DNA of 64,000 nt from Sedimentisphaerales bacterium (GCA_028281535.1 JANQJS010000025.1:1-64000), one strand, 5' to 3'; counted from the first letter of the stretch, positions 31,825 through 35,971 are shown. Numbers and translations: made by a program. The notes: generated by a model from the letters alone, not told the origin.

Positions 31825-34461
31825 CTAATTGTTTACTGTGGTTTCATAGTTTACGCCGCTGGGAACAGGGACAGGGACATTGACGGTAATGCCCTGAGTT
31901 CCTGCTGTTTTGGTTAAGGAGTCTACGGCGATGAATGCGGTGTAATTACTCATTAAGCCATGGGATAATGCGACGTTTTTAATTTCTTCGGGGAGAGTAT
32001 TGTTTTTGTCATAGGTGGCCTGATTTGAGAGATCTTCAATTTTTTTACGTGCCCAAATCGATGAGACTGCTTTATGTGAATTGTTATTTAAATCAACATC
32101 GAGAAGTATCTCATGATCTAGTGGGCCAACATTTCCTGAGATTTTAATTGTTTCGTCTATTTTACCATTAATCCGACCTGTGAGAATGACTGGACGACCC
32201 ACAAAGAGATCAGGTACCTGGCGTGGATAGACATCAGTGACTTTGAGATTCCCCCAATCAATATTGATATTTGTTAGAGCAGGATGGCTGATACGATCAT
32301 AGAATAGATCAACAGTATCAATAGCATTTTCATTTAATCCGATGTAGGCAACGGCGCCTTTACCAAGCTTTGCCATGCGGTCCAAAAGGTAGCGATTGAC
32401 GCTATCGCCAATTCCGAAACTAAATATTTTTGCCTCTCCTAAACGTTTATGGATTTCGCCAAGAATTTCAACTTCATTGCCAATATAACCATCTGTCATG
32501 AATGTGACAATTCGCATGCGGCTAGCGTCATGCTCAAAATCCAAGGCTGCTTTAATTCCTTCAATCATGTGTGTGCCACCTGAGCCATGTAGATTGTTAA
32601 CAAATTCCAAGGCATGGTCGATGTTTTCTTTTGTTGCTATTACAGGTTTGTTTCCAAGTTGTGACGTATCACTAGAAAAGCGAATTACTTGAAACGTATC
32701 TTGAGGTTGTAGTTTTTTTAATGCACGCGTGATAGCTTCTTTCGATTTTTGTAAAGGAAATCCATTCATGCTGCCAGAGCAGTCGAGAACAAAAATCATT
32801 TCTACTGGCGCGCGTTTGAGCGATGAGAGGTTTTCGGGTGGATAGAGCATCATTGTAAAGTAATTTCCAGTGTCATTGTTATGGGTAATGATAGAGGGTT
32901 TTAATTTGTCACCAGCCACTTTATAGCGGAAGATAAAATCTTTGTTGGGAATTGTATCATTGGGGCTCAATTTGACTAATATTTGTTTGTCAGAGATTAC
33001 TTCTTTTTCTATGACATGGCTATGACATTTTGATGCTTCGATTTTGACACCTGCGTCGATGTTGAGTGTTAGTGAAATATCATGGCCGCTACGCTGATTG
33101 GGTTTAAGATAGGCCACTTCCGTTGTTTGGCCTGAACCTGCCTGTTGGTCCTGGCTTACAGCACCAATGCCATTGGTAGAATTGGGTGGGTTGTAGCGAG
33201 GCCCGACGACCATGGGGAATACAAATTCATACCATCCGTCATTATATGCGAGTGTATTAAAGTATTTTATATCGATATCAATATCTTTGTTAGGTTCGAT
33301 ATTTGCTACTTTCTGTGTGAATATATTGGGGCGTTGTTGTGTGAGAAGAGAAGCTGTGTAGCCTTGGATTTTTGCTTCTTTATATATTTTTTCAGCTTCC
33401 TCTTTTTCGCGTATAATACCTCGGATTTTCCGGTCACCTATGGTCATGATAAATTCATTTACGGCAGCATTTTGTGGTAAAGGAAAAACATATTTTGCTT
33501 CGATTTTGACATTGTATGGATTATGAAATTGCTGCTGAACATTAACTGAGCCAATGTAGCCGGATACTTGTGCATTAACGTTTGTATGTTTTAGTGGTAG
33601 TGGGATTTCTTCGGTGATTTTGGGAATGGTGGCAAGAATGGTACCACATTTTAAATTATCATCTAGTGGTGTTAGTTGATTTGATGTAGGGCGTGTAATA
33701 ACCCAGATTTCGTCAGCAGAGATATGAAGAATATTCTTTAGGAAATTATCGTTTGGGCTAGATGAAGCCGAAGGTCTTTTGGTGAGACCGAATAAAGAAA
33801 GATTGTTTCTTCCTGTAATGGGAATATCACCTAGTTTTTTTTTGCGAGGTTTATTTCCTGAAAGACCTTTCTCAATATTATCTTTTTGTTCGATAATGGG
33901 GCCACCACCGCCACCGCCAAAACCTTCGCCTCTTGGAGGATAATCTTTTTCTGTGGCATACGTCGGTAATTCCGAATCAATTGCAATGGTTACGATTCCT
34001 CGATGGATGGTATATGCTGCCATGATGCCTTTGCCAACTGAAACTTTTTGAAGAAGAGTATTTAGTGTGGTTTCATATGATACATCATTTAATTTTAGTG
34101 TTACTAATTCTTCTTTAAGAATGCCTGCAAATTCTAAAGAGCCCCAGAGTGCATTAAGATTAATATTACTCTCACTCTGCATTTGATTCAAGATTTCCTC
34201 TAGCTTCGTTTCGTGAAAATCAGGCGACCATTTTTGTGTTACTAGTTTATAGCGAGTTTTGTTATCTAACTCTTGGATATGTTTCTGGAGTTCTTCCTGG
34301 CTAATAGTGTTTTTAATAGGTTCTGAATTTTTTTTTGTTATTGTTCGTTTGTGCGGGGGGGTAGGGTTATGGCTACATGAAGTGAGTAAAAGAATGAGCA
34401 TGTAAAGTAATGCCACAGTGGTTCCCATGAAAGTTTTATTTATTAGGCCGATATGATTCAT
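31825..34461 (-). CDS. VIT-vWA lipoprotein with N-terminal secretin-like (STN-type) region
   Basis: This 878-residue protein has lipobox 'LLTSC' (Cys29). Residues about 80-163 look like a short secretin/TonB N-terminal fold, followed by a Gly-rich linker. The VIT domain is at about 285-420 ('VSGYIGSVNVQQQFHNPY', 'AEKIYKEAKIQGYTASLL'). The vWA domain (from about 552) has MIDAS 'DCSGSMNG' and a later 'TFMTDGYIGN'. The layout resembles inter-alpha-trypsin-inhibitor heavy chains and suggests metal-dependent protein binding on the envelope. Last gene of the sigma-dockerin-cohesin run; its start lies 2 bp after the cohesin-like stop. Confidence 0.9.
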   Translation of the reverse strand: MNHIGLINKTFMGTTVALLYMLILLLTSCSHNPTPPHKRTITKKNSEPIKNTISQEELQKHIQELDNKTRYKLVTQKWSPDFHETKLEEILNQMQSESNINLNALWGSLEFAGILKEELVTLKLNDVSYETTLNTLLQKVSVGKGIMAAYTIHRGIVTIAIDSELPTYATEKDYPPRGEGFGGGGGGPIIEQKDNIEKGLSGNKPRKKKLGDIPITGRNNLSLFGLTKRPSASSSPNDNFLKNILHISADEIWVITRPTSNQLTPLDDNLKCGTILATIPKITEEIPLPLKHTNVNAQVSGYIGSVNVQQQFHNPYNVKIEAKYVFPLPQNAAVNEFIMTIGDRKIRGIIREKEEAEKIYKEAKIQGYTASLLTQQRPNIFTQKVANIEPNKDIDIDIKYFNTLAYNDGWYEFVFPMVVGPRYNPPNSTNGIGAVSQDQQAGSGQTTEVAYLKPNQRSGHDISLTLNIDAGVKIEASKCHSHVIEKEVISDKQILVKLSPNDTIPNKDFIFRYKVAGDKLKPSIITHNNDTGNYFTMMLYPPENLSSLKRAPVEMIFVLDCSGSMNGFPLQKSKEAITRALKKLQPQDTFQVIRFSSDTSQLGNKPVIATKENIDHALEFVNNLHGSGGTHMIEGIKAALDFEHDASRMRIVTFMTDGYIGNEVEILGEIHKRLGEAKIFSFGIGDSVNRYLLDRMAKLGKGAVAYIGLNENAIDTVDLFYDRISHPALTNINIDWGNLKVTDVYPRQVPDLFVGRPVILTGRINGKIDETIKISGNVGPLDHEILLDVDLNNNSHKAVSSIWARKKIEDLSNQATYDKNNTLPEEIKNVALSHGLMSNYTAFIAVDSLTKTAGTQGITVNVPVPVPSGVNYETTVNN

Positions 34462-34463
34462 TC

Positions 34464-34892
34464 TTATTCTCCTCGTTCAGTAGAAATGATACCATCGATA
34501 GGTTGACCGTTTTCGTTTCCAGCGATAGTTAGTTGGGTTTCGAAGTAAGGGGTTTGAGTGTCGCTTACTTGTAGGTGTAACGTAGCAATACGAGACTTGC
34601 CCGTGGGTAAATCTTGATTCGTACTGTAATCAGCAATAATAATTCTTTGATTCATGATTGCTTTGGTATCGTAGTAGGGTGGTGAATTGAAAGATGGGTG
34701 TTGTCCGCCTTCAATACCAACAATTTTTACATTGTCAGAAGCATTTAGTTCAAATTGATAGGCTGCTAATGGTTGGCTGCCAGAGTCGATATAGACATGG
34801 AGTGGGATGAACTTGATTGTTTCAGATTTGTCTGCGAGCAAGGGAGAAATGCAAAGGCCACACAAGATTAAAAATATATAAAAATATTTCAT
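34464..34892 (-). CDS. Exported cohesin-like protein
   Basis: This 142-residue protein has a Sec signal peptide (about 1-20, ending 'SPLLA'). The rest is a single beta-rich domain with 'HVYIDSGSQPLAAYQFEL', 'IVGIEGGQHP', 'RIIIADYSTNQDLPTGKSR' and 'IATLHLQV', the pattern of cohesin and related carbohydrate-binding domain 2 folds. Its ATG shares the last A of the upstream TAA, so it is translationally coupled to the dockerin gene. A cohesin next to a dockerin strongly suggests binding between the two products. The domain call is by pattern only. Confidence 0.7.
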   Translation of the reverse strand: MKYFYIFLILCGLCISPLLADKSETIKFIPLHVYIDSGSQPLAAYQFELNASDNVKIVGIEGGQHPSFNSPPYYDTKAIMNQRIIIADYSTNQDLPTGKSRIATLHLQVSDTQTPYFETQLTIAGNENGQPIDGIISTERGE

Positions 34893-35371
34893 TATAAAAC
34901 TCCTTGTGATAGTTGAACCGCTGCTAATGCAATTGCGTCTACATCTTGTTGGTTGATCTTATGATCTTTGTTAATGTCCCAGGTTGCCTGTGGCGTTTTG
35001 TTATTTTCGATGGCTTTAGCGAGCGTAAATGCATCCATGATATCTACTTTACCATTGTTGTTAATGTCTTTGGGATTGACCGCAATCATGTTAGGTGGTT
35101 GTATTTGTTTGGCAGTGTCGCTTATGTTCATCCAAAACATTATCATGAGGCAGGCTGCAATAGCCACTGCAACGCCCGACCAGCGAAGCAGTTTTGTATT
35201 GGTTCTCGAACGGCCCAGTGGATGAAGATGTTGCTCTGCTCGGTGGAGGATCGTTTGATCAATTTGGCTAGGTGGCAATTTATTCGATGTGAATAAAGCT
35301 TGTAAGTCCTCGGACAATTCTGGTAAATCTTGATTGTCCAGTTGATCGGTATTTTTATTGTTGTTTTCCAT
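34892..35371 (-). CDS. Membrane protein with extracytoplasmic dockerin, probable anti-sigma factor
   Basis: This 159-residue protein has an acidic cytoplasmic part (1-60) and one membrane helix at about 64-83. Outside is a type I dockerin with two calcium loops: Asp102, Asn104, Asn106, Asp110, Asp113 in the first, and Asp132, Asn134, Asp136, Asn140, Asp143 in the second. It lies 66 bp after an ECF sigma gene and is coupled to a cohesin-like gene. The cytoplasmic part has no zinc motif. Anti-sigma role is inferred from position and topology. Confidence 0.8.
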   Translation of the reverse strand: MENNNKNTDQLDNQDLPELSEDLQALFTSNKLPPSQIDQTILHRAEQHLHPLGRSRTNTKLLRWSGVAVAIAACLMIMFWMNISDTAKQIQPPNMIAVNPKDINNNGKVDIMDAFTLAKAIENNKTPQATWDINKDHKINQQDVDAIALAAVQLSQGVL

Positions 35372-35437
35372 GTCTTCATTCCTATGTGTTTAGCCATGTT
35401 CGAGGCGGTAAAGTTCCCAAAAAATGAGAAATATTAT

Positions 35438-35971
35438 TTATTTTTTAAAATATTTTTTTGTGTTTGGATCATTTCGTAGAGTCTCCAAAGCTCTGTGTAG
35501 TCTTGATTTAACTGTTCCTATGGCGATATCCAGTGTTTGAGCAATTTCTTCCAAGCTGAAATTGTCAACAAATCTTAGTAGAACAATTTCCTTTTGTTGG
35601 TCGGATAATTTCTTAAGACCTCGGGCCAGTTCGGTTCGGGCCTCATCGATAATTGTTTCTGTTGCCGCGGGTAGAGAATCGAGGAGCTGTTCATTTCCTG
35701 TAAAACGCTTATTTTTGGTTTGGATATTGATGGCCAAATGCTTCACTACTGGGTATAGAAACGTTTTCAAATTTGCCGTTAATGTGAAACCTGGGAATTT
35801 GCGTAATAAATAGGAGAAGGTTTCTTGCAATACATCCCCGGAATCTTCATGGTTTGCCGTAAACCGCCAGGCCAGGTTAAAGACCCAATCGCGATAACGC
35901 AAATAGAGTGTTTCAAAGGCATTGGAATCGCCCTGGTTGATTAATTTGATAAGTTCCTGATCCGATGGCAT
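35438..35971 (-). CDS. ECF RNA polymerase sigma factor
   Basis: This 177-residue protein has sigma region 2 ('FETLYLRYRDWVFNLAWRF', 'DSGDVLQETFSYLLRKFP') and region 4 ('KEIVLLRFVDNFSLEEIAQ', 'GTVKSRLHRALETLR'). Region 3 is absent, as in group 4 factors. First gene of the run that leads to the dockerin, cohesin-like and VIT-vWA genes; these may be its targets, since such factors often drive their own operon. I could not fix its promoter. Confidence 0.93.
   Translation of the reverse strand: MPSDQELIKLINQGDSNAFETLYLRYRDWVFNLAWRFTANHEDSGDVLQETFSYLLRKFPGFTLTANLKTFLYPVVKHLAINIQTKNKRFTGNEQLLDSLPAATETIIDEARTELARGLKKLSDQQKEIVLLRFVDNFSLEEIAQTLDIAIGTVKSRLHRALETLRNDPNTKKYFKK

Follow-up and report, generated by a model that had tools for sequence, protein, structure and literature searches.

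A conserved sigma factor operon of Sedimentisphaerales with a membrane dockerin protein and a predicted cohesin

Organisation of the operon

The operon described here lies on the minus strand of a 64,000 nt stretch of the genome of a Sedimentisphaerales bacterium (GCA_028281535.1, JANQJS010000025.1:1-64000), the whole of which is referred to as the window. The operon is tight (35971-31825) and carries four genes in the order SIG, DOC, COH, VIT (Table 1), which specify an extracytoplasmic function (ECF) sigma factor, a membrane protein with an external dockerin, an exported cohesin-like protein, and a lipoprotein with VIT and von Willebrand factor A (vWA) domains. SIG and DOC are separated by 66 nt, the stop codon of DOC overlaps the start codon of COH by 1 nt (TAATG), and VIT begins 2 nt beyond COH. 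An earlier note on this DNA, made from the sequence alone, had described such an operon, and all four genes were indeed found on one strand with the overlap and the 2 bp gap that it gave. The dockerin of DOC scored 34.7 bits against Pfam Dockerin_1 (cut-off 22.9), which places it among the type I dockerins, and its two calcium loops, DINNNGKVDIMD and DINKDHKINQQD, are both complete, bearing out the description of a complete two-loop dockerin on a membrane protein. VIT scored 506.6 bits against TIGR03788 (marine sortase target protein), below the equivalog cut-off of 551.65.

Table 1. Genes and features of the operon (positions in the window).
Feature	Position (nt)	Strand	Basis
SIG, ECF-type sigma-70 factor, 177 aa	35438..35971	-	Pfam Sigma70_r2 43.4 bits, r4_2 58.6 bits, both above cut-off; TIGR02937 sigma70-ECF above cut-off
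DOC, 159-aa membrane protein with one helix and an extracytoplasmic dockerin, probable anti-sigma factor	34892..35371	-	Dockerin_1 34.7 bits; SIG upstream of DOC-COH in 80/99 loci
DOC N-terminal cytoplasmic region (about residues 15-50), putative reduced class I anti-sigma domain without zinc motif	35222..35329	-	Alignment with L123, L239, L084, L250-L252
DOC putative transmembrane helix (about residues 65-83)	35123..35179	-	Sequence: single hydrophobic run after RSRTNTKLLR
DOC dockerin (residues 102-155) with recognition helices and calcium loops, two of each	34907..35068	-	Pfam
COH, exported cohesin-like protein, 142 aa	34464..34892	-	AF2 model pLDDT 89, pTM 0.76; cohesins as PDB fold matches
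COH putative signal peptide (about residues 1-20)	34833..34892	-	Sequence; AF2 helix 2-15
COH predicted cohesin-fold domain (about residues 25-140)	34473..34820	-	VIA-align range 24-140, Z 10.5 to 6kgc, 10.1 to 1ohz
VIT, 878-aa lipoprotein with VIT and vWA domains (lipobox LTSC, residues 26-29)	31825..34461	-	VIT 120.8 bits, VWA_3 68.3 bits, both above cut-off
VIT domain of VIT (residues 290-400)	33262..33594	-	Pfam PF08487
vWA domain of VIT (residues 554-703), metal site DCSGS	32353..32802	-	Pfam PF13768 / PF00092; motif read in sequence

Conservation of the gene order

A genome scan with a COH alignment returned 35 loci, chiefly from Phycisphaerae/Sedimentisphaerales and including Verrucomicrobia, one member of the Lentisphaeria and one gammaproteobacterial metagenome-assembled genome (MAG). 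In most of these first loci SIG, DOC, COH and VIT follow one another on one strand. COH was found in 50 of the 397 genomes searched from the class, in 36 of 392 from a sample of the phylum and in 30 of 120 from one family, and is essentially single-copy per genome, the source genome also having one. A comparative set of 106 distinct loci was read, mostly from Planctomycetota with a few from Verrucomicrobia and Lentisphaeria. DOC is a separate gene just upstream of COH in 94 of them, and the two share an open reading frame (ORF) in at least eight (seven found by rule, and L133 by reading), so that at least 101 of the 106 have a dockerin gene either adjoining COH or fused to it. As genomes of the order contain only about 1-37 dockerin matches each, this adjacency is far beyond chance.

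Of the 99 loci with room for SIG, 80 have it upstream in the same orientation and three more have it adjacent on the opposite strand. Of the 96 with room for VIT, 84 have it downstream of COH, and the full set of four is present in 62 of the 89 with room on both sides. A vWA lipoprotein is the most constant third party, being of the VIT-vWA type in most loci and of the YfbK type (vWF_A, VWA, YfbK_C) in L252. No other family was found as a fifth flanking gene in more than four of the 35 first loci, apart from a 13-locus group of ORFs antisense to the four genes, and SIG, DOC, COH and VIT are therefore taken as the unit. Conservation of the four-gene order, a check that the earlier note had proposed, holds across many families and beyond the phylum.

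A complete operon with a one-loop dockerin (L079) is carried by a contig labelled as a Gammaproteobacteria MAG, and L083 (5724-6288) is a decayed copy in which overlapping SIG and COH fragments occur without DOC or VIT. A DUF4349 lipoprotein is specified in some of these operons (L065:4230-5492 and L250:3971-5188, probably also L043:242-1420 and L236:2448-3437).

Predicted fold of COH

The Pfam scan of the window's COH gave no match, PF00963 (Cohesin) included, which is why the protein is called cohesin-like. Its profile found nothing at E ≤ 10 among PDB sequences when built from nine rows, and only two cohesins (E about 0.9) when built from 58, while the Lentisphaeria homologue L084 scored 18.7 bits (E 0.002) against Pfam Cohesin, which is below the threshold. 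With no significant match from sequence searches, comparison of folds became the sole decisive test. A COH model, calculated with AlphaFold2 (AF2) on a nine-sequence alignment (A1), had a mean predicted local distance difference test score (pLDDT) of 89 and a predicted template modelling score (pTM) of 0.76. In a Foldseek search of the PDB, places 1-25 were all taken by cohesins (E from 1e-4), and with VIA-align the first 48 PDB entries were cohesins, the first non-cohesin having Z 7.4. The best VIA-align match was 6kgc (Z 10.5, 114 residues, root-mean-square deviation (rmsd) 2.6), and 1ohz, the classical cohesin-dockerin complex, gave Z 10.1. COH is predicted from this model to adopt a cohesin fold. 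The earlier proposal of a cohesin-like protein is upheld as regards the predicted fold (AF2, Foldseek, VIA-align), and finds no support in Pfam or PDB sequence matches; the absence of such a fold from the 142-residue protein, which the note had named as grounds for rejection, is not what the model gave.

Dockerin-cohesin fusions and predicted docking

In most loci the DOC and COH genes are tightly coupled, by a 1-nt overlap, a 4-nt overlap or a 2-nt gap. In L237, L219, L217, L214, L215, L129, L131 and L133 a single ORF specifies the anti-sigma N-terminus, transmembrane helix, dockerin and cohesin, the dockerin being either intact or degenerate. These fusions span different families and at least two classes, and represent at least four separate lineages. 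The L237 protein has both calcium loops intact and a linker of about 12 residues. In the L129, L131, L214 and L215 proteins the calcium loops are gone and the dockerin helices retained, as if the docking surface were what selection keeps.

The dockerin and cohesin of L237 were modelled together (AF2; 188 residues) from an alignment (A5) of 98 mostly unpaired rows, in which only the last dockerin turn was misplaced. The model had a mean pLDDT of 90.6, a linker pLDDT of 57 and a pTM of 0.81. For residues 1-57 the fold matches are dockerins (8ajy_B, Z 6.9, rmsd 2.0, 55 aligned), for residues 69-188 cohesins (6kgc_A, Z 9.5, rmsd 2.9, 115 aligned). From the definition of pTM, a value of about 0.6 would be expected for two independently moving domains, given a cohesin of 118 residues and a poorly ordered linker, so that AF2 appears to fix the position of the dockerin with respect to the cohesin with confidence. 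In this natural fusion, the model suggests, the dockerin probably docks on the cohesin. Taking fusions, gene order and model together, it is highly likely that COH binds DOC, and for the window's own pair we infer such binding.

The dockerin might instead be merely a membrane-proximal spacer, with COH working together with the VIT-vWA lipoprotein and not binding DOC. VIT does follow COH almost as strictly as DOC precedes it, and DOC-COH binding is itself a prediction. However, the L129, L131, L215 and L217 fusions join COH to DOC with no VIT nearby, the distant loci L247, L250 and L251 retain SIG-DOC-COH without VIT, and the pTM of the L237 model argues for contact, all of which makes a spacer quite improbable.

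Calcium loops and other dockerins

Dockerins with intact loops invite the suggestion that DOC folds and docks on COH only when calcium is bound, periplasmic calcium thereby setting sigma activity. Both loops are intact in the window and in 71 of 101 DOC homologues, yet one loop has been lost in 21 and both in nine, and these proteins still keep their helices and COH. As 30 of the 101 lack one loop or both, calcium is not a general signal and calcium-gated binding is not general, leaving a calcium sensor scarcely credible.

Another suggestion is that DOC competes for COH with the many other exported dockerin proteins, so that free COH reports export load or surface assembly. The source genome, with about 30 dockerins matched at E ≤ 0.001 and not one Pfam cohesin, would suit such competition. 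In a sample of the order, dockerins were found in all 59 genomes (1-37 each) and Pfam cohesins in three of the 59, leaving most dockerins without a known partner. Dockerins are, however, as dense in genomes that have COH as in those that lack it (3.46 versus 3.55 per Mb, p 0.72), so COH does not seem to serve the many other dockerins, and fused and loop-less forms would hardly be able to swap partners. Competition of this kind is considered very unlikely. Two dockerin matches were found within open frames of 14,875 codons (G052:C142:140187-140441) and 11,126 codons (G026:C10:28049-28201), possibly giant exported proteins.

DOC as a probable anti-sigma factor

Like the genes of class I anti-sigma factors, DOC stands beside the gene of an ECF sigma factor. 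Distant members of its family join a canonical zinc anti-sigma domain to a dockerin. The clearest is the L252 protein, which stands between a sigma gene and a cohesin gene and contains both zf-HC2 (29.4 bits, Pfam cut-off 22.2) and Dockerin_1 (33.7 bits, cut-off 22.9). Seven family members carry Hx3Cx2C at the N-terminus, the signature for zinc-binding class I anti-sigma factors (PMC7406223). Because of these members DOC is, judged by its sequence relatives, very probably an anti-sigma factor, which strengthens the same suggestion in the earlier note. The N-terminal domain of the window's DOC is reduced and zinc-less and is recognised by alignment only; it aligns with the segment that runs from after Hx3Cx2C to the membrane helix in the zinc-bearing L123, L239, L084 and L250-L252. 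Zinc and zinc-less versions are known to co-occur inside anti-sigma groups (PMC7406223).

The genes upstream of DOC vary in a few loci. In L060 (1080-3743) and L063 (2542-5226) a response regulator and a histidine kinase occupy the usual sigma position, and in L066 (1292-3208) the gene reads as a primary (RpoD-like) sigma factor rather than an ECF type, with DOC about 150 bp downstream. L249 (3210-3506) specifies a 98-aa membrane dockerin without an anti-sigma domain, followed by a lipoprotein cohesin, so that pairs of the DOC-COH type also occur without a visible sigma link. Inspection by eye of about 60 loci revealed no clear common motif upstream of SIG that might be an autoregulatory ECF promoter, and no regulon is therefore proposed.

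Proposed mechanism

The operon is predicted to be a variant of the ECF/anti-sigma kind in which cohesin-dockerin binding supplies the ectodomain, a real, conserved and unexpected arrangement whose mechanism is only partly determined. The structural and comparative case is strong. That the operon as a whole is an ECF sigma/membrane anti-sigma system, with an outside sensor built from a cohesin-dockerin pair that is complexed in the resting state, is held to be moderately probable. DOC would hold SIG at the inner face of the membrane by its short N-terminal domain and present the dockerin outside. COH, synthesised alongside DOC through coupled translation, would be exported and dock on this dockerin, the two forming one composite extracytoplasmic module that is docked from the start. 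The cue would probably be a state of the envelope, reported by COH and/or the VIT-vWA lipoprotein, that alters or removes the complex; DOC would then be rearranged or cleaved, and SIG released. For the window, we infer the anti-sigma activity of DOC, the resting-state role, the signal and the proteolysis.

The earlier note had proposed the reverse, that a cohesin contact outside could free SIG inside; COH would arrive or be offered there, and its contact with the dockerin would be the inducing signal. This switch would use the same parts and the same coupling, and extracytoplasmic ligand domains have been proposed as triggers of RsgI-type anti-sigma factors (PMC6056542, PMC3413522). However, cohesin and dockerin form one polypeptide in at least four lineages, where contact seems constitutive and the signal would be permanent, and elsewhere COH is supplied together with DOC by coupled translation. 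Release of SIG by cohesin contact is accordingly not supported and appears unlikely. Since an ever-present contact cannot be a signal, the recurrence of cis fusions and the joint synthesis of the two proteins favour the complex as the likely resting state rather than the trigger, and suggest that SIG is released by some event other than cohesin contact, perhaps by way of the vWA lipoprotein.

Several points weigh against the resting-state sensor. The sequence of COH does not significantly match those of known cohesins, and the L237 model comes from a mostly unpaired alignment, without interface coordinates, with pTM as an indirect measure of docking. The N-terminus of the window's DOC is short and without zinc helices, so that its anti-sigma role rests on homologues. 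Finally, 16 of 99 loci have no SIG beside DOC, some having a two-component pair or an unrelated gene there.

A wider, tentative possibility is that ECF anti-sigma factors throughout Planctomycetota and relatives have taken up cohesin-dockerin binding as an ectodomain for general purposes. The complex would be constitutive and switched by a vWA lipoprotein (VIT-vWA or YfbK-type), and would form a sensor class of its own. If true, this class would account for one or more of the roles that cohesins and dockerins have in bacteria without a cellulosome. Planctomycetota are rich in ECF sigma factors with signals not yet known. Where there is no cellulosome, cohesins and dockerins have for years been recorded with no clear function; the operon gives one such pair a testable role in a transmembrane switch. 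The fusions, the loop-less dockerins, the zinc and zinc-less anti-sigma domains and the exchange of vWA partners are natural experiments by which binding, calcium and signalling can be separated.

Relation to known systems

In function the operon resembles the sigma-I/RsgI systems of cellulosome-forming clostridia, Acetivibrio (Clostridium) thermocellum and relatives. These likewise have a membrane anti-sigma factor with an outside sensory module, specified beside the sigma gene, in bacteria that carry dockerins; RsgI ectodomains bind polysaccharide by carbohydrate-binding (CBM), glycoside hydrolase (GH) or PA14 modules (PMC6056542, PMC3413522). They differ in having a sigma factor of the SigI kind, whereas the operon has an ECF sigma factor and, outside, a dockerin that apparently binds a dedicated exported cohesin. 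Pfam and NCBIfam scans of the operon proteins found no RsgI domain, SigI-type sigma or CBM/GH ectodomain.

Membrane-bound class I anti-sigma factors that act on ECF sigmas (ASDI; RsiW, RseA) share the layout, the sigma gene being followed by that of an anti-sigma factor with an N-terminal cytoplasmic domain and one transmembrane helix, and zinc and zinc-less versions are mixed within their groups (PMC7406223), as in the DOC family. In contrast to DOC, no dockerin or cohesin ectodomain is described for them in the papers found, and the anti-sigma domain in the window is reduced. In the RseA-RseB and MucA-MucB systems a second exported protein is bound to the anti-sigma ectodomain in the resting state. 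By analogy, we think that COH would play the part of RseB toward DOC, although RseB is not a cohesin and no Pfam match to MucB_RseB was found in COH.

Cellulosomal and non-cellulosomal cohesin-dockerin pairs show the same two folds as the DOC dockerin and, as predicted, COH. Here, by contrast, a single cohesin occurs in a signalling context, with no scaffoldin and no enzymes in the operon, and the source genome, having no Pfam cohesin, lacks the multi-cohesin scaffoldin of a cellulosome. A 'planctosome', a hypothetical large peptidase-carrying surface complex, has been proposed for Nemodlikiaceae (Phycisphaerae) and also uses cohesin and dockerin modules outside cellulose degradation; no sigma or anti-sigma factor figures in the parts of that account consulted (PMC6461901). 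In the portion consulted, a cohesin survey names one species of the Planctomycetes-Verrucomicrobia-Chlamydiae (PVC) group with scaffoldins and makes no link to sigma factors (PMC11557425). The earlier note had held a dockerin/cohesin anti-sigma switch to be undescribed, and the literature found, clostridial RsgI and the 'planctosome', agrees with this; no dockerin- or cohesin-bearing anti-sigma system was met with in it, although coverage was partial and the evidence of novelty hence weak.

Features of the VIT lipoproteins

A secretin-like signature (PLLGDVPVVGGLF, PLLGDTPLVGNLF) is present in the N-terminal linker of some VIT lipoproteins (3 of 30, versus 0.005 expected in shuffles), namely those specified at L039:4486-6729, L065:6428-8983 and L043:2360-4771. 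The window's VIT contains a similar stretch, LGDIPITGRNNLSLFG, and its region at about 33700-34280 appears STN/secretin-like by eye.

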